A DNA stretch of 64,000 bases from Comamonas sp. BIGb0152 (GTDB taxonomy: Bacteria > Pseudomonadota > Gammaproteobacteria > Burkholderiales > Burkholderiaceae_C). Numbering within the stretch: the first letter of the stretch is position 1; each line of letters opens with the position of its first letter. The position numbers and the translations under genes are program-made. Location: the NCBI RefSeq assembly GCF_024809975.1, contig NZ_JANUDY010000003.1:186001-250000 (forward strand). Reading direction: 5' to 3'. Shown piece by piece: positions 2,280-9,168 of this stretch. The notes below the pieces were generated by a model that was not told the DNA's origin, ran no database searches, and saw only the letters and a list, made by a program, of their open reading frames with translations.

Positions 2280-2481
2280 CAAAGCGCATGCGCCCGCCTG
2301 GCCCGAGCGGGCAGCCAGTCCAGCAAAAAGCCGGTCCGCAAGCCGTTGACCCGGCGCCAATCAGGCAGCGTCAACCCGCTCAGGCGGCCCATTGCCCTGC
2401 CCAAATACCCGTTTGCTTTCGCATAGCGGATTTGGTCCACCCACGGTAAAAGCTGACGCAGAAAATCTTATCGTTTGCTCC
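2280..2481. other. Intergenic stretch, possible gene remnant on the minus strand
   Basis: On the minus strand a GTG-started frame at 2440 reads DQIRYAKANGYLGRAMGRL, has fairly coding-like codon use, then runs into the end of the serine hydrolase gene. It may be a decayed gene start. No family was recognised and no ribosome binding site stands out. Confidence 0.3.
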
Positions 2482-2503
2482 AAAAAAAAGGAGCCGAAGC
2501 TCC
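2482..2503 (-). terminator. Intrinsic terminator of small ORF C
   Basis: The minus strand reads GGAGCTTCGGCTCC followed by eight T residues: a perfect 5-bp stem with a UUCG loop. It sits 34 bases after the stop codon of the small gene ending at 2537, which supports that gene being a real, separately transcribed unit. Confidence 0.8.
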
Positions 2504-2536
2504 CTGCATTGCTATTTGCGCCTGAGCGCAAGATAG

Positions 2537-2680
2537 TTAGACCAAGTCAATAGCCTTTTTGGCTGGTTCCTGAGGCTTCTCAGCCGGCTTTTTATCTTCC
2601 GGCTTGGGCGTCTGTTCGGCAGCCATGGTTTTCAGGGGCGCCTGTTGCTTAGCCAGGAAGGGATTGGATAGGAATGACAT
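2537..2680 (-). CDS. Small ORF C, 47 aa, with the shared palindromic start site
   Basis: A 47-residue protein, unrecognised. It begins MSFLSNPFLAKQQAPLKT and continues as a Lys/Glu/Pro-rich tail containing PKPEDKKPAEKP and ending AIDLV. The ATG at 2680 is preceded by AGACCGGAGGTCT with a 2-nt gap, exactly as at three genes on the other strand between 3312 and 4219, and the gene has its own terminator. The hydrophobic N-terminus with Leu-Ser followed by a charged tail loosely resembles the type A proteins downstream, but the FW pair is absent, so relatedness is uncertain. No signal peptide or membrane span is seen. Confidence 0.7.
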   Translation of the reverse strand: MSFLSNPFLAKQQAPLKTMAAEQTPKPEDKKPAEKPQEPAKKAIDLV

Positions 2681-2682
2681 TT

Positions 2683-2695
2683 AGACCTCCGGTCT
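2683..2695 (-). promoter_or_regulatory. Palindromic start-site element, copy 1 (small ORF C)
   Basis: The minus strand reads AGACCGGAGGTCT. AGACC pairs with GGTCT around a GGA triloop, so GGAGGT, a strong ribosome binding site, lies in the loop and 3' arm of a hairpin. The neighbouring bases T and A extend the stem to 6 bp. Spacing to the ATG is 2 nt. Confidence 0.75.
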
Positions 2696-2702
2696 AGTTC
2701 AG

Positions 2703-2720
2703 AAGGCAAGAATCTGCCTT
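2703..2720. repeat. Inverted repeat upstream of small ORF C
   Basis: AAGGCA and TGCCTT are separated by 6 nt, just upstream of the start-site palindrome on the minus strand. It could be a 5' UTR hairpin or an operator. Function unknown. Confidence 0.4.
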
Positions 2721-3218
2721 CATGCCAACCACCGTACGCCTTTTAATAACCTTAAACCATATGCAAGCGAATACTTACTTATTTTCTACCATGAAGGACC
2801 TAAAAATGCCCGACCGAAGACCTGGATGCTGCTAAGCCATCGGGCAAGCCCAGCCTCCGCCGCCAAGGGAGATGGCAATTTCTGGGCGTTGGTGCGCAAG
2901 GGTAAGCCAGGACAAGCGCGCTACGGACCCTGCACTGCACCAAGGCAGAACGAGCGTCTAGCATCAAGGGCAGCGCTACAGCAGTTGTAGCACCCAAAGA
3001 CGCTTGAGCCAGCGATGCGAAGCATCCGCCCGGCCCATCCACCAGCAGGAATGGGCCTTGCTCTGCACAAATGCGCGGCCGGGTGCATGCCGCCAACGCG
3101 CACATCCCACCCAAGTGGCTGAGGTAAAACGACCGGCGGCAGGGCACAGCCATACCCGTTGCCACCGCGCCGAGCCCCTTGCGAGAGGAATGTAGCCAAA
3201 GACGCAAAACAGGCTATT

Positions 3219-3248
3219 TTGGCACCTCCAGGTAAGTCTTTGTGTAAT
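3219..3248 (+). promoter_or_regulatory. Candidate sigma-70 promoter of the A1-B1-A2 cluster
   Basis: TTGGCA (3219-3224) and TGTAAT (3243-3248) are separated by 18 nt, about 80 nt upstream of the A1 start codon. Assigned by eye only. Confidence 0.4.
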
Positions 3249-3298
3249 GCCGTTGTAAGGGATTAAAGAGAGTACTGTGGATCTAGGCAATCTATCTC

Positions 3299-3324
3299 GA
3301 TTTGCCACCATAGACCGGAGGTCT
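3299..3324 (+). promoter_or_regulatory. Palindromic start-site element, copy 2 (A1), with conserved upstream box
   Basis: AGACCGGAGGTCT at 3312-3324 folds as a 5-bp stem with a GGA loop, extendable to 7 bp by the flanking AT pairs. It ends 2 nt before the A1 ATG and contains the ribosome binding site. The 13 nt before it, GATTTGCCACCAT, differ at only 2 positions from the sequence before the B2 copy at 4189. The shared element is therefore 26 nt with 24 identities. Confidence 0.75.
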
Positions 3325-3326
3325 AT

Positions 3327-3503
3327 ATGCTTTTGCACCCTCTTTCAAAGCACAAGCGCAGCTTCTGGGAGCTTGTGAAATCACTCTTCTCAGCAAAAAC
3401 CCCGGAACAAGTACCCGTCATTGATCAAGGCCACAAGCTCGCCAAGGAGCCTGAAAACCTGAATCGCAAAGCGACAGTTTTCCCCGGCTCCGGTGATTTC
3501 TGA
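3327..3503 (+). CDS. Small protein A1, 58 aa, type A family (LS...FW)
   Basis: Unrecognised protein, the first gene of the small-gene cluster. It starts MLLHPLSKHKRSFWELVKSL and continues with a polar tail ending VFPGSGDF. The Leu-Ser at 6-7 followed by Phe-Trp at 13-14 recurs in the genes at 3756 and 4451, so three type A paralogues are present. The N-terminal 21 residues could form a short amphipathic helix; there is no cleavable signal. The start is fixed by the GGAGG inside the palindrome 2 nt before the ATG. B1 follows after 17 nt. No function is assigned. Confidence 0.75.
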   Translation: MLLHPLSKHKRSFWELVKSLFSAKTPEQVPVIDQGHKLAKEPENLNRKATVFPGSGDF

Positions 3504-3520
3504 CGCAGGTGGAGGCCATG

Positions 3521-3742
3521 ATGACATTCACTGACAAAACCATCTTCAGCATACGATTGCGGCAGCCGCTTCCGCAGAAAGATGTTGATAGTCGTAACGT
3601 TTCCGACGACGACTACGTGTTTCATCGCCCATTTGTCGCAGGCGCCGACGTGCAAAAGGAGACGCCAATGCAACGCATGAAAGAAAAGACAGCCCGGCTT
3701 CTCGAACAAGCTGTGCTTCAGAAAAAACCTGACCCTAATTAG
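3521..3742 (+). CDS. Small protein B1, 73 aa, type B family (DVDSRNVSDDD)
   Basis: Unrecognised protein. From the ATG at 3521 it begins MTFTDKTIFSIRLRQPLP, then has the acidic core DVDSRNVSDDD at about 21-31, a FHRPF element, and a helical, charged C-terminus with KTARLLEQAVL. About 26 of the first 38 residues match the protein at 4217. In the 11-residue core, 9 codons differ between the two genes and every change is synonymous, which shows selection on the protein. GTGGAGG lies just upstream; the adjacent ATG at 3518 is an alternative start. The TAG stop overlaps the palindrome of the next gene. No signal peptide or membrane span. Confidence 0.8.
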   Translation: MTFTDKTIFSIRLRQPLPQKDVDSRNVSDDDYVFHRPFVAGADVQKETPMQRMKEKTARLLEQAVLQKKPDPN

Positions 3743-3753
3743 ACCGGAGGTCT
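3741..3753 (+). promoter_or_regulatory. Palindromic start-site element, copy 3 (A2), overlapping the B1 stop codon
   Basis: AGACCGGAGGTCT, 2 nt before the A2 ATG. The TAG stop of B1 (3740-3742) overlaps its first bases, so a ribosome finishing B1 would sit on the hairpin and could open it, coupling A2 translation to B1. The coupling is inference from the geometry. Confidence 0.75.
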
Positions 3754-3755
3754 AT

Positions 3756-3929
3756 ATGTTTTCACTTCTTTCATACCAACGACACATGGAATTCTGGCGC
3801 GATATGCGCGACATCCTCTGGATGCCCATCGACAAAATGGAGCCGATCCTTGCTGAGGTTAAGAGTCCCCAAAAACAGCAGCCAAAGGATGATCGAGCCC
3901 GCAATAAAAAACGGAAAACCGAATGGTAA
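3756..3929 (+). CDS. Small protein A2, 57 aa, type A family
   Basis: Unrecognised protein, second type A member. It begins MFSLLSYQRHMEFWRDMRDI, with Leu-Ser at 5-6 and Phe-Trp at 13-14 as in A1. LWMPIDKMEPI follows, recalling FPWIPIP in the protein at 4451. The last 20 residues are strongly basic (NKKRKTEW at the end), unlike the acidic tail of the protein at 4451. The start is set by the palindrome-embedded GGAGG. It directly follows B1, so A1-B1-A2 is read as one operon. Confidence 0.7.
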   Translation: MFSLLSYQRHMEFWRDMRDILWMPIDKMEPILAEVKSPQKQQPKDDRARNKKRKTEW

Positions 3930-4188
3930 AAACATGCCATGGGCGCTATTGAGGCGATTACTGCATACGGGCCATCGGCGCCCGCCCTTGGGCGATATCA
4001 GGGGCACAACAAAAGCATTGCGCGTCGGTGCCCTGTTTCCTGGTTCACCAAGTCCGTTGCGCACCCTCTAAACGGCGCTGGGCGGCAAACCAAGGGCTGT
4101 CAAAGATAGTTCTCCCGCGATCAAGCAAGTGTTTGCACAGCGCGGTTTGGGGCCTTTAAAAAGTCTCGTCGGACGAGGCCATCCTCCT
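3930..4188. other. Spacer between the two small-gene groups
   Basis: A 56-codon open frame starting at 3939 (MGAIEAITAYGPSAPALGRY) is present but has no clear ribosome binding site or paralogue here, so it is not called as a gene. A weak promoter candidate lies at 4133-4161. Nothing else stands out. Confidence 0.4.
4133..4161 (+). promoter_or_regulatory. Possible promoter of the B2-A3 pair
   Basis: TTGCAC (4133-4138) and TTAAAA (4156-4161) are separated by 17 nt, about 55 nt before the B2 start codon. Assigned by eye; weak. Confidence 0.25.
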
Positions 4189-4214
4189 GATCTGCCACCC
4201 TAGACCGGAGGTCT
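4189..4214 (+). promoter_or_regulatory. Palindromic start-site element, copy 4 (B2), with conserved upstream box
   Basis: AGACCGGAGGTCT at 4202-4214 is preceded by GATCTGCCACCCT and ends 2 nt before the B2 ATG. The upstream box is shared with the A1 copy. This copy precedes a type B gene, whereas copies 2 and 3 precede type A genes, so the element belongs to the start site and not to one protein family. Confidence 0.75.
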
Positions 4215-4216
4215 GA

Positions 4217-4432
4217 ATGTCTTTCACAGACAAAATCATCTTCAATATCCAGGCAAGAACGCCCGTCCCCAAAACAGACGTGGACAGCCGCAATGTCTCT
4301 GACGATGACGACCTCTTTCACCAGCCATTTCGCACCATGGCCGAGCCTATAAATCGTTCACCGAAAACAATTTATATTGAGAAAATCGTGCGTCTCTTGC
4401 AGCAGGCCGCTGCAAACAAAGCGACGATCTAG
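4217..4432 (+). CDS. Small protein B2, 71 aa, type B family
   Basis: Unrecognised paralogue of B1. It begins MSFTDKIIFNIQARTPVP, has the invariant DVDSRNVSDDD core at about 21-31, FHQPF, and a C-terminal helix with EKIVRLLQQAA. The N-terminal half is the most conserved part of the family; the middle (about 40-52) varies. The ATG is fixed by the palindrome. A3 follows after 18 nt, so B-then-A order is repeated as in B1-A2. The gene is visibly AT-richer than the chromosomal genes on either side. Confidence 0.8.
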   Translation: MSFTDKIIFNIQARTPVPKTDVDSRNVSDDDDLFHQPFRTMAEPINRSPKTIYIEKIVRLLQQAAANKATI

Positions 4433-4450
4433 TTGCCTGAGGAGATCCAC

Positions 4451-4618
4451 ATGTTTGTATTCCCACTCTCGACAGAAGGTTCATTCTGGGCCAGCTTAAA
4501 AAGCTGGGCTTTCCCTTGGATTCCCATTCCCCAAGCGCTCGACCAGCAAGAGTGCGTTGTCAGTGATCCAGAGAAAGACGATCAAGAGCAAGATCAAAAA
4601 ATCAACCGTGATGCATAG
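4451..4618 (+). CDS. Small protein A3, 55 aa, type A family
   Basis: Unrecognised protein, third type A member. It begins MFVFPLSTEGSFWASLKSWA, with Leu-Ser at 6-7 and Phe-Trp at 12-13, then FPWIPIPQAL and an acidic tail (SDPEKDDQEQDQ). The start is chosen at the ATG 4451 because GAGGAG precedes it by a normal distance; this gene lacks the palindrome. A terminator follows about 35 bases after the stop. The opposite tail charges of A2 (basic) and A3 (acidic) could allow pairing, but that is speculation. Confidence 0.7.
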   Translation: MFVFPLSTEGSFWASLKSWAFPWIPIPQALDQQECVVSDPEKDDQEQDQKINRDA

Positions 4619-4653
4619 CGCCTGACCAGCGCAGCCGTCAGCCCTGCATTGCA

Positions 4654-4679
4654 AGCCACCTATGGGTGGCTATTTTTTG
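4654..4679 (+). terminator. Intrinsic terminator of the small-gene cluster
   Basis: AGCCACC and GGTGGCT form a 7-bp stem with a TATG loop, followed by ATTTTTTG. It closes the B2-A3 unit. Confidence 0.8.
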
Positions 4680-4792
4680 TCTTGTGAAGATGCACAACCG
4701 TGCCGCAACAATCAGCCATCGCCGATACCAAGTGGATTGATGGGTCGGATCGGGGGCGGGAAAAGGCAAACTGGAGCAGCTGCTCGGAAATG

Positions 4793-4816
4793 AAAAAACC
4801 GCCCTGAAGGCGGTTT
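4793..4816 (-). terminator. Intrinsic terminator downstream of tRNA-Val
   Basis: The minus strand reads AACCGCCTTCAGGGCGGTTTTTTC, a GC-rich stem and T run, about 80 bases past the tRNA 3' end. A second small inverted repeat (AAACCTCGGAGAGGTTT) lies at about 4829-4845. Confidence 0.75.
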
Positions 4817-4895
4817 GTTCAAAATAGAAACCTCGGAGAGGTTTCCCATCAGATCCCTGGTATCCTGAAGTCTGGTTCTCTTCAGAGGGAAAATT

Positions 4896-4972
4896 TGGTA
4901 GGCGCGATTGGACTCGAACCAACGACCCCCACCATGTCAAGGTGGTGCTCTAACCAGCTGAGCTACGCGCCT
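4896..4972 (-). tRNA. tRNA-Val (anticodon GAC)
   Basis: The minus strand gives a full 77-nt cloverleaf. The acceptor stem AGGCGCG pairs with CGCGCCT and is followed by ACCA, so the 3' CCA is encoded. The D arm has AGCTCAGCTGGTTAGAGC, the anticodon stem is CCACC/GGTGG with loop TTGACAT (anticodon GAC), and the T arm contains GGTTCGAGTCC. GAC reads GUC/GUU valine codons. Confidence 0.97.
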
Positions 4973-4988
4973 GTCGTTGAAGACTCAA

Positions 4989-4994
4989 ATTATA
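4989..4994 (-). promoter_or_regulatory. -10 element of the tRNA-Val promoter
   Basis: A perfect TATAAT on the minus strand, 17 nt before the tRNA 5' end. No good -35 match was found at ideal spacing. Confidence 0.55.
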
Positions 4995-5054
4995 GCCAGA
5001 AAAAACGGGCCAAATGGAAACTTGGGCCTTTTTTTGAAAATAGTGCTTTCGGCC

Positions 5055-7331: not shown

Positions 7332-8267
7332 CTACGCACCGCACAAAAAAGCCAGCACTGCAGCCGTTTGATCAAAAGATACCAGGGTAGGAGCATGGCC
7401 CACACCTGCAAATTCCACCACCCGCGCCCGTGGGCCGGATGCGGCCATAGATTGGGCCGTTTTCTCCGAAAGCAAGTCGGATTCTGCGCCCCGCAATACC
7501 AATGTTGGGGCCTGAATCTGGTCATAGAGTCGCCAAAGCAACTGCTCGCCGGCGGCGGCCATCTCGGGGGTCATCGCCTGCATGGGCTGGGCGATGGCCG
7601 GGTCGTAATGCAGCCGCACCGCGCCGCCCGCTTCAGGCCGCAGCATGGGGCGCGACAGCGCCAGCCACTCTTCAGGGCTATGGGGCCCAAAGCCTTTGGA
7701 TATCTGAGCCATCGCCGCGACCGCCTCCTGCTCGCAGGCATAGCGCATGTGCTGGCCCACATAGCTGCCAATGCGCAGCAAGGCCGAAGGCTCCAGGGTA
7801 GGCCCCACGTCATTGAGCACCAAGCGCCGGATGGCGGCAGGCATCAGCGGCTGAATGCTGGGCTCGCCCGCCAAGGCCATGCCAATCAGCCCCCCCATGC
7901 TCGTACCCACCCAATCGAGTTGGCCCATCGGCGCGCTCTGGTGCACCTGCTGAAGCAGGGCCAGCATATCGGCCACGTACAAAGGCACCTGGTAGCCGGC
8001 CGGATCCTCCAACCAATCGCTGTAGCCACGTCCCACCACATCGGGGCAGATGACCCGCGCCTGCAGCGCCAGTTGGCGCGCCAGCACGTCGAAATCGCGC
8101 CCTTGCCGCGTCAGCCCATGGGCACAGACGATCACATGCGGGTGGTGGAGATCGCCGGTATCGTTCCACTCCCAATACGCCATGCGGTGCGTGGCACCCT
8201 GGCGACCCGTGTCCGTATTCCCCGCCACCGCACAGGTGACATACTGCAAGCGTGGATCTTGGTACAT
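7332..8267 (-). CDS. Alpha/beta hydrolase
   Basis: A 311-residue alpha/beta-hydrolase-fold enzyme. The nucleophile elbow GTSMGG places the catalytic Ser at 123; an oxyanion-side HG follows HVIVCA at about 50; the catalytic His is in GVGHAPTL near the C-terminus. No signal peptide, so cytoplasmic. The ATG at 8267 is chosen over an upstream in-frame ATG because GAGGGG lies directly before it. It is divergent from 3-hydroxybutyrate dehydrogenase across a 112-bp region with a 10-bp inverted repeat. The substrate is unknown; a role near polyhydroxybutyrate or short-chain ester turnover is only a guess from the neighbour. Confidence 0.8.
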   Translation of the reverse strand: MYQDPRLQYVTCAVAGNTDTGRQGATHRMAYWEWNDTGDLHHPHVIVCAHGLTRQGRDFDVLARQLALQARVICPDVVGRGYSDWLEDPAGYQVPLYVADMLALLQQVHQSAPMGQLDWVGTSMGGLIGMALAGEPSIQPLMPAAIRRLVLNDVGPTLEPSALLRIGSYVGQHMRYACEQEAVAAMAQISKGFGPHSPEEWLALSRPMLRPEAGGAVRLHYDPAIAQPMQAMTPEMAAAGEQLLWRLYDQIQAPTLVLRGAESDLLSEKTAQSMAASGPRARVVEFAGVGHAPTLVSFDQTAAVLAFLCGA

Positions 8268-8300
8268 GGCCCCTCTTATATGGAAGAACGCAACGATACA

Positions 8301-8326
8301 AGGCAAACCCTGGCTGGGGTTTGCCT
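8301..8326. repeat. Inverted repeat in the hydrolase/bdhA divergent promoter region
   Basis: AGGCAAACCC (8301-8310) and GGGTTTGCCT (8317-8326) form perfect 10-bp arms with a 6-nt spacer, midway between the two divergent start codons. No T run follows on either strand, so an operator is more likely than a terminator. Confidence 0.6.
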
Positions 8327-8379
8327 TAGGATGGATGCTGCGTATGCATGAATACTAACCGAGTAACTGGAGATATTGG

Positions 8380-9168
8380 ATGCTGAAAGCAAAAACAGCG
8401 CTCGTCACCGGATCGACGAGCGGCATAGGTCTGGGGATTGCGAAAGCGCTGGCGCGCCAAGGCGCAAACATCATCTTGAATGGCTTTGGTGATTCTGAAG
8501 GCCCGCTCAAGGAAGTGCAGGACGTCATCACCAGCGCGGGCTCAGGCGCGCGCGTGGGCTACCACGGCGCAGACATGGGCAAGGCCGACGACATTGAAGC
8601 CATGTTTGCCTATGCCACGCAGGCCTTTGGCCAGGTAGACATCCTCGTCAACAACGCCGGCATCCAGCATGTGGCAACGGTGCAGGATTTCCCGGTCGAG
8701 CGCTGGGACGCCATCATCGCCATCAACCTGACCAGCGCCTTCCACACCAGCCGGCTGGCACTGCCACCCATGCAAAAGGCAGGCTGGGGCCGCATCATCA
8801 ATATTGCGTCGGTGCACGGCCTGGTGGGCTCGGCCGGTAAATCGGCCTATGTCGCTGCCAAGCACGGCATTGTCGGTCTGACCAAGGTCACGGCGCTGGA
8901 GAACGCCGACAGCGGCATTACCTGCAACGCCATCTGCCCGGGCTGGGTGCTCACCCCGCTGGTACAAAAACAGGTCGATGCCAAGGCCGAGCAGCTGGGC
9001 ATCAGCAACGAAGAAGCCAAAAAGCGCCTGCTGGGCGAGAAGGAGCCTTCGATGCAGTTCACCACGCCCGAAGAGCTGGGGGAACTGGCCGTGTTCTTTT
9101 GCTCACCCGCAGCCAACAATGTGCGCGGCGTGGCCTGGAACATGGATGGGGGCTGGGTCGCCCAGTAA
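8380..9168 (+). CDS. bdhA: D-3-hydroxybutyrate dehydrogenase
   Basis: A 262-residue short-chain dehydrogenase/reductase that interconverts 3-hydroxybutyrate and acetoacetate with NAD. The cofactor loop TGSTSGIG is at 10-17 and NNAGIQH follows; the catalytic Ser is in NIASVHG and the Tyr-Lys pair in SAYVAAKHG. The spacing and the C-terminal pattern (WVLTPLVQKQ, a long cap segment, NMDGGWVAQ) match the bacterial 3-hydroxybutyrate dehydrogenase subgroup well. It probably serves polyhydroxybutyrate degradation. GGAG precedes the ATG and a terminator follows. Confidence 0.92.
   Translation: MLKAKTALVTGSTSGIGLGIAKALARQGANIILNGFGDSEGPLKEVQDVITSAGSGARVGYHGADMGKADDIEAMFAYATQAFGQVDILVNNAGIQHVATVQDFPVERWDAIIAINLTSAFHTSRLALPPMQKAGWGRIINIASVHGLVGSAGKSAYVAAKHGIVGLTKVTALENADSGITCNAICPGWVLTPLVQKQVDAKAEQLGISNEEAKKRLLGEKEPSMQFTTPEELGELAVFFCSPAANNVRGVAWNMDGGWVAQ

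Follow-up and report, generated by a model that had tools for sequence, protein, structure and literature searches.

A conserved two-hairpin leader at the translation start of dispersed tiny genes in Comamonas

A stretch of 64,000 nucleotides (nt) of the genome of Comamonas sp. BIGb0152 (contig NZ_JANUDY010000003.1, positions 186,001 to 250,000; hereafter the window) contains a cluster of tiny genes, most of which are preceded by the same short hairpin with the Shine-Dalgarno sequence inside it. This hairpin, HP2, appears to form the distal part of a 5' leader with two hairpins, which would control translation start of dispersed, lineage-specific tiny genes in Comamonas and in one further genus of its family, a reading of comparative data whose chances we consider evenly balanced. 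The sequences themselves carry the leader, its tie to the start codon, the covariation of its first hairpin (HP1) and the selection on the open reading frames (ORFs) that it precedes. Judged at this level, the leader is a real, lineage-specific regulatory element over dispersed orphan small genes, and its mechanism is most likely translational. In the labels used below, L denotes a locus stretch, G a genome and C a contig of this analysis.

The hairpin motif is tied to the start codons of tiny genes

The exact motif AGACCGGAGGTCT occurs four times in the window, on both strands and each time ending 2 nt before an ATG, precisely where the initial annotation had placed it; tolerating two mismatches adds no further copy, and none of 100 shuffled sequences contained four. 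The whole genome holds five copies, the fifth of which (C2:38965) stands 2 nt before the ATG of a 55-amino acid (aa) ORF, so that all five precede an ATG; the reversed pattern, used as a control, had no match in this genome. Across 53 Comamonas genomes we found 45 exact copies, spread over 17 genomes (the reversed control gave nine), and by script a start codon was located at +2 behind every one of them (38 ATG, 7 TTG), opening an ORF of 47-72 aa each time. For comparison, an ORF of this size follows 12.5% of the 3830 ATGs on the plus strand of the window and of loci L036-L055. In gene orientation the loop reads GGA, never TCC, in all 45 copies. The proposed association of the motif with start codons, as opposed to random placement, is thus borne out across the genus.

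The window cluster comprises six tiny genes (C; A1, B1 and A2; B2 and A3) instead of the five counted originally. Proteins of family A (approximately 55-60 aa) have a short N-terminal helix with an F-W motif, which is nearly invariant in 15 sequences, followed by a polar tail. Those of family B (approximately 62-74 aa) share the core DVDSRNVSDDDYxFH, represented by LPDVDSHxVSxDDY in divergent members, and C, with 47 aa, has one relative (L039). As had been suggested, the hairpin is common to more than one small-gene family, and the families carrying it show no detectable mutual similarity. Subgroups of A and B combine a shared N-terminal part with variable middles and fixed C-terminal ends (TVFPGSGDF, YRYW, TAEEDY, FKFL). 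Family B was detected in 17 of the 53 Comamonas genomes, all of them among the 25 leader-positive ones (see below), and in 2 of 141 genera.

The ratio of nonsynonymous to synonymous substitutions (dN/dS), obtained with a simple counting method and without a neutral control, was below 0.7 in every printed pair and mostly between 0.05 and 0.3 (pairs at least 60% identical, 69 distinct genes). The small ORFs are therefore conserved, and the tiny genes, as far as substitution patterns tell, are real and under purifying selection. None of 10 tiny proteins exceeded a cut-off in Pfam (best 13.4 bits versus 26.8) or NCBIfam (best 12 versus a cut-off of 252), the best match of the same 10 in PHROGs had an E of 0.17, and none of five tiny proteins was matched by PADLOC. 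AlphaFold models of B2 (mean predicted local distance difference test, pLDDT, 70.1; predicted template modelling score, pTM, 0.30) and A2 (62.1 and 0.27) were too weak for a fold search; at this low confidence the A model has a helix at the N-terminus, and the B model one at the C-terminus, which is its best predicted part.

The hairpin belongs to a longer leader

HP2 (AGACC-GGA-GGTCT) consists of a stem of 5-7 bp and a GGA loop, and it holds the Shine-Dalgarno sequence GGAGGU half in the loop and half in the stem. The pairs of the consensus stem are perfect, those of single members imperfect. A compensatory change to GGACC/GGTCC was found at three loci of G032 and at L153, and G-U variants, e.g. 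GGACTGGAGGTCT, also keep the pairing. The observation of the initial annotation is confirmed, but the upstream part of the leader, comprising a promoter-like block and HP1, had been missed.

Counted back from the last base of the start codon, the block occupies approximately nt 79 to 50 at a constant distance (consensus GTTTAAGGTCATTAAAAGGAGTACTGTGG) and is followed by HP1 and then HP2. Among 38 distinct leaders that carry the block at its most frequent offset and include many orthologues, conservation covers most columns from -78 to -1, apart from a short variable stretch (-49 to -46) that separates the block from HP1, and columns -105 to -99 are near random (0.03-0.15 bits). T-57, A-56 and T-52 are present in all 38, giving the pattern TAnnnT. 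On the strength of this conservation and of TAnnnT we infer a -10 candidate and a dedicated promoter; an alternative -10 (ATTAAA) farther upstream is possible, and a sigma-70 consensus scan detected no consensus promoter at the conserved block. A second promoter class, with GTAAGTCTTTGTG upstream and ATTAAAGAGAGTACTG replacing ATTAAAAGGAGTACTG, was noted at window positions 3231-3280 and in L038, L040, L045 and L050, which suggests two modes of transcriptional input. GTTTAAGGTCATTAAAAGG may resemble a direct repeat of the PmrA/QseB type.

HP1 has the consensus GGC-RATC / GATY-n-GCC with a one-base bulge. In an alignment of 35 of 36 selected leaders (A4; one L045 row was left out), changes on both sides that keep the pairing occur at six of its seven pairs, and the covariation score of the whole structure is 0.205, compared with a mean of 0.138 after shuffling (reached in 0 of 500) and at most 0.093 for slid structures, a control that favours HP1 partly because the hairpin was first proposed by eye and its pairs were counted afterwards. 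We then used R1, a 79-nt covariance model of the leader built without ORF information from 26 sequences (A5; what remained of 39 full-offset leaders once near-identical ones were removed). In 67 distinct rows aligned to the model, a fit that leans towards structure, all seven HP1 pairs covary and the score is 0.295 (shuffled 0.199, slid at most 0.120). HP1 is thus probably an RNA structure.

Distribution of the leader

R1 matched 70 places in 25 of the 53 Comamonas genomes (E ≤0.1; the filters lose some weak matches). In a sample of the whole family, with 150 genomes representing 141 genera, it matched only the source genome and two genomes of one other genus (g43), so that two of the sampled genera are positive. 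Of 28 matches inspected, six were already known by the motif, and 26 open an ORF of 48-74 aa, whose start codon is ATG or TTG and once CTG; one of the other two is cut (L137). The last one (L156:1180-1259, in G014) combines a near-perfect promoter block with a decayed HP2 (GAGACCGGGGGGCCG) and an ORF of 18 aa, and is perhaps a dying copy of the leader. Some candidates were discarded as chance-like, namely five of 24 stretches from viral_contigs (L093, L096, L100, L103, L105), with neither a tiny ORF of the usual size nor a leader, one of eight stretches from genome_contigs, located before a 403-aa ORF in a metagenome-assembled genome of the Actinomycetes, and a match in G129 before a 16-aa ORF.

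The initial annotation knew of no described system like this element. In agreement with this, an Rfam scan of window positions 2300-5000 left the leader unmatched, a tRNA alone reaching the gathering score, and string searches of the accessible papers for motif and block gave no match; word searches for Comamonas small genes and leaders returned no title or abstract start dealing with such a leader.

Hairpin copies inside operons

Of 70 distinct HP2 instances, a set in which at least one chance entry was kept (L014), 22 have a block score of less than 16 (out of 30), and half of these (11) are located 9-112 nt behind another tiny ORF. The cleanest internal cases are window position 3741 and L045 position 8033, each with a perfect HP2 and a block score of 7 and 8 of 30, respectively; in both, the stop codon of the preceding B gene shares 2 nt with HP2. 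In L097 a B ORF (8185-8457) even runs through the HP2 at 8408. The occurrence of HP2 inside operons, its fixed distance to the start codon and its single orientation favour a role in translation over a DNA operator. Since an elongating or terminating ribosome would open an HP2 that is overlapped by the stop codon, translational coupling to the upstream tiny ORF would be the natural reading of these arrangements.

Possible function of the leader

In the mechanism we propose, the conserved 30-bp block would act as a dedicated promoter, and with TAnnnT as its -10 element the RNA would start at or just before HP1, so that its 5' end would coincide with this covarying stem or lie close to it. The ribosome would have to open HP2, which contains the Shine-Dalgarno sequence and ends 2 nt short of the start codon; the closed form of HP2 would represent the off state. 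A trans-acting factor, either an RNA-binding protein or a small RNA (sRNA), probably reads HP2 and would set the tiny genes on or off jointly; such a reader is probable because HP2 seems constrained in its letters and not in its pairing alone.

Several observations weigh against this proposal. In 38 aligned copies of HP2, 11 of 13 letters are conserved at 100% and two at 97% (37 copies have AGACC as their 5' arm and one has GGACC, and CCGGA is present in all 38), but the copies were gathered by their likeness to HP2 (at most three changes, GGAGG kept), so that this invariance is partly built in; the start-codon count of 45 out of 45 is not affected by this mode of collection. HP2 barely varies, with changes on both sides at three of six pairs in the 67 rows; a copy with AGTCT...GGTCT folds at 0 kcal/mol, and divergent B genes carry arms like GGATC/GGCTT. 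The predicted energy of HP2 is -4.1 kcal/mol for 13 nt and -6.5 kcal/mol for 17 nt, and ribosomes may simply melt so weak a hairpin. In the predicted fold of the B2 leader, the Shine-Dalgarno sequence pairs with a CCTCC of the HP1 region and is mostly paired from 5 to 60°C. In eight of the 11 copies behind a tiny ORF one pair is disrupted (TGACC, AGTCC or AGTCT), and the other three (L033 and L034 at 1114 and 1986) give weak R1 matches (34.1, 23.6 and 38.6 bits, respectively) and may represent decayed leaders rather than none. Tiny genes without HP2 exist as well, i.e. B1 and A3 in the window and some B genes elsewhere. At least 11 of 13 HP2 letters are kept by 17 of 27 family-B matches, a tally in which the script returned no ORF for L245 and took a wrong start for L238. 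In L235, GGAGGTCTAT is retained and the 5' arm is missing; internal genes may thus lose the hairpin. As to HP1, RNAalifold run on A4 predicts HP2 alone and does not find HP1, and kinship without structure can also exceed shuffled covariation scores. Sliding the structure by +1 even yields more pairs and cells with changes on both sides (9 and 25) than the unslid structure (8 and 18), although just 38% of its cells pair, compared with 86% unslid.

Alternative explanations

The weakness of HP2 would also fit a leader made of constant parts, in which both hairpins merely insulate the translation start and shield the 5' end from decay without acting as a switch. The predicted strength of HP2 is near what ribosomes tolerate, and HP1 would form the extreme 5' end of the RNA with TAnnnT as the -10 element. 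We consider this explanation unlikely, as it does not account for an HP2 arm that is constrained letter by letter outside the Shine-Dalgarno sequence, nor for the particular set of genes that carries HP2. A base-pairing sRNA that opens or blocks the GGA loop and Shine-Dalgarno sequence in all mRNAs jointly would account for an HP2 that is nearly letter-identical before genes without detectable similarity (in copies collected by likeness), but all five exact copies in the genome are leaders, in a search for the sRNA that covered exact copies of the motif, and we judge this explanation rather unlikely. The initial annotation had further raised the possibility of a DNA operator, in which case a dimeric repressor would bind to the palindrome TAGACC-N3-GGTCTA near the gene start. 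This 15-bp palindrome is indeed present on both strands of the window. An operator would hardly require a distance of always 2 nt to the start codon, GGA and never TCC in gene orientation (45 of 45), or copies within operons; moreover, the group of G-U variants described above keeps RNA pairing and breaks the DNA palindrome, and the TGACC and AGTCC variants break both. A DNA operator is thus disfavoured and in our view very improbable.

The nearest described architecture that we found is the short ROSE-like RNA thermometer of Pseudomonas ibpA. In the available part of its description (PMC3669281), this leader is likewise short, with two hairpins, the Shine-Dalgarno sequence in the second one and an unpaired start codon, and the pairs of its first hairpin are conserved with one compensatory change. 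A thermometer of this kind, with a stable HP1 and an HP2 that is melted by heat to free the Shine-Dalgarno sequence, had been one of the meanings originally suggested. Predicted melting does not support it: between 5 and 60°C HP2 remains closed in three of the four window leaders, the Shine-Dalgarno sequence of the fourth being mostly paired in another fold, and predicted two-state midpoints are approximately 70-79°C. The Comamonas leader is thus predicted not to melt in the growth range, in contrast to ROSE-like thermometers, which open on a shift such as 25 to 42°C. ROSE elements are defined by the anti-Shine-Dalgarno motif U(U/C)GCU in the same part of that source (PMC3669281), and this motif is missing from the Comamonas leader, in which a GGA triloop closes a perfect stem, whereas the helix of ROSE-like elements is imperfect. 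It also precedes orphan small proteins, none of the 10 scanned with Pfam exceeding a cut-off, and not small heat shock genes. We thus regard a thermometer as improbable, and heat alone as the trigger is unlikely on the basis of these predictions.

Candidate RNA-binding proteins

CsrA/RsmA proteins recognize GGA in a hairpin loop over the Shine-Dalgarno sequence, with the core ANGGA. The leader resembles such sites in having GGA exactly in the loop of the ribosome-site hairpin and differs from them in that CCGGA, found in all 38 aligned copies, lacks the A two bases before GGA. We rejected CsrA as the reader of HP2, as its Pfam family PF02599 was found in none of the 53 Comamonas genomes (E 1e-5); as a control, PF02599 matched three of 14 named genomes (Escherichia coli, Bacillus subtilis and Thermotoga maritima).

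A small gene encoding a single RRM domain recurs near the clusters (L041:1145-1396, L149:2111-2362, L162:2798-3049, G004:C1:2774093 and G029:C1:3358220). The 83-aa protein found near clusters is related to a Pfam RRM protein (L161). Searching the genus yielded 18 matches at least 54% identical to it, nine of which are located within approximately 6 kb of an R1 match (two in G013, and G019, G027:1744751, G017, G364, G365:C48:3800, G029:3358220 and G004); since the C. testosteroni loci look orthologous, the independent cases number about five, and the figure is biased because the family was noticed by its recurrence. The other nine are not near a leader (G029:4493505, two in G020, G019:3237531, G016, G034, G357, G365:C48:42407 and G027:1740440). 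Ten of 12 genomes with this RRM clade are leader-positive, compared with 15 of 41 others (Fisher p 0.007, uncorrected for phylogeny). The source genome has the leader and only more distant RRM proteins (three matches, best identity 51%), and the 83-aa protein therefore cannot be the sole reader. No such leader was detected in the sequences upstream of the RRM genes. It is possible that the RRM protein is a trans factor, or else a mere fellow accessory gene.

RbpB is a bacterial protein of the RRM kind. It has been described, in the accessible part of the report, as a global RNA-binding regulator in Bacteroides (PMC11697453). In E. coli, introducing the motif of an RRM protein where a gene begins enables this protein to repress translation, according to the portion of the study at hand (PMC10942595). 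Both this repressor (PMC10942595, same portion) and the MS2 replicase operator rely, like the Comamonas leader, on an RNA motif at the start site that can be bound by a protein and blocks the ribosome; in contrast, the Comamonas hairpin serves many dispersed chromosomal genes, and its binder is putative. We tentatively suggest a lineage-specific post-transcriptional regulon in which a dedicated RNA-binding protein would read the hairpin and switch a fast-turning-over repertoire of orphan tiny proteins. The reader would possibly be the small single-RRM protein, or a core RRM protein in genomes without one, and the leader would be the constant part that gains new small ORFs. This is a speculative proposal with a rather low chance of being correct.

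R1 provides a sequence handle on dozens of real small genes that were missed by the protein libraries searched, and the leader is a clean case for studying how unrelated genes come under the control of a single element at their translation start. With a constant leader and differing ORFs, how new small genes gain regulation becomes directly testable. A trans factor, should there be one, would regulate translation in bacteria whose genomes yielded no CsrA.

The window cluster and its genomic surroundings

The features of the cluster are compiled in Table 1. It is flanked by a serine-hydrolase-like gene, a tRNA and a RelA/SpoT-like gene, names that are based on the translations alone.

Table 1. 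Tiny genes, leader elements and terminator-like hairpins of the window cluster (SD, Shine-Dalgarno sequence)
Feature	Position	Strand	Basis or remark
Intrinsic-terminator-like hairpin after C	2488..2505	-	Consensus scan only
Tiny ORF C, 47 aa (MSFLSNPFLAKQQ...)	2537..2680	-	Relative MSFLSNPHLSNR... with identical HP2 in L039
Whole leader of C (promoter-like block, HP1, HP2, ATG)	2678..2758	-	R1 62.2 bits, E 1.3e-13
HP2 of C, AGACC-GGA-GGTCT, SD hairpin, 2 nt to ATG	2683..2695	-	Motif scan
HP1 of C, perfect 7-bp stem GAAGGCA/TGCCTTC	2702..2721	-	Sequence and predicted fold
Whole leader of A1	3251..3329	+	R1 91.5 bits, E 6e-21; among the 26 model-building sequences
HP1 of A1, GGC-AATC / GATT-t-GCC	3286..3306	+	A5 columns 36-56; covariation
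HP2 of A1; 7-bp stem counting flanks (3310-3326)	3312..3324	+	Motif scan, fold
Tiny ORF A1, 58 aa, family A (...SFWELVK...TVFPGSGDF)	3327..3503	+	ORF, alignment
Tiny ORF B1, 74 aa, family B (DVDSRNVSDDDYVFH), ATG 3518, plain SD, without HP2	3518..3742	+	
HP2 of A2, operon-internal; first two bases within the TAG stop of B1; block score 7/30	3741..3753	+	R1 just 17.2 bits
Tiny ORF A2, 57 aa, family A (MFSLLSYQRHMEFWRDM)	3756..3929	+	
Whole leader of B2	4144..4219	+	R1 52.5 bits, E 3.6e-11
HP1 of B2, proposed by homology	4177..4196	+	Alignment A4 row 4; predicted leader fold differs
HP2 of B2	4202..4214	+	Motif scan
Tiny ORF B2, 71 aa, family B, ATG 4217	4217..4432	+	
Tiny ORF A3, 55 aa, family A (...SFWASLK...), ATG 4451, plain SD, without HP2	4451..4618	+	Sequence, alignment
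Intrinsic-terminator-like hairpin at cluster end	4654..4671	+	Consensus scan only

The earlier description of the element as a mobile cassette agrees with our data in part, as clusters are found at varied places, some of them close to genes of transposases or proviruses, but none was seen to have a mobile element of its own. In three IMG/VR contigs (L097, L092 and L101), clusters adjoin provirus genes encoding an anti-repressor, a tail protein and replication initiation. A tblastn search of plasmid and phage records with one family-A protein gave no match at E 0.01.

No neighbouring gene is common to all clusters in 43 loci, the most widespread one being present in six (tiny families and antisense ORFs excluded). 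A gene for an N-terminally hydrophobic protein of approximately 170-190 aa recurs beside clusters (L036:2257-2835, L038:3977-4486, L043:1697-2206, L046:3453-3980 and L101:9339-9887) and adjoins a MFKFSAYPPASFW gene in four of these five loci; one member of this family is HIRAN-like just under the Pfam cut-off, and three others scanned were unmatched. In addition, tandem small helix-hairpin-helix proteins are encoded near clusters at two loci (L045:10710-11648, and L052:9-775 together with L104:7665-8488, apparently one locus), and one of them also matches the C-terminal domain of the RNA polymerase alpha subunit.

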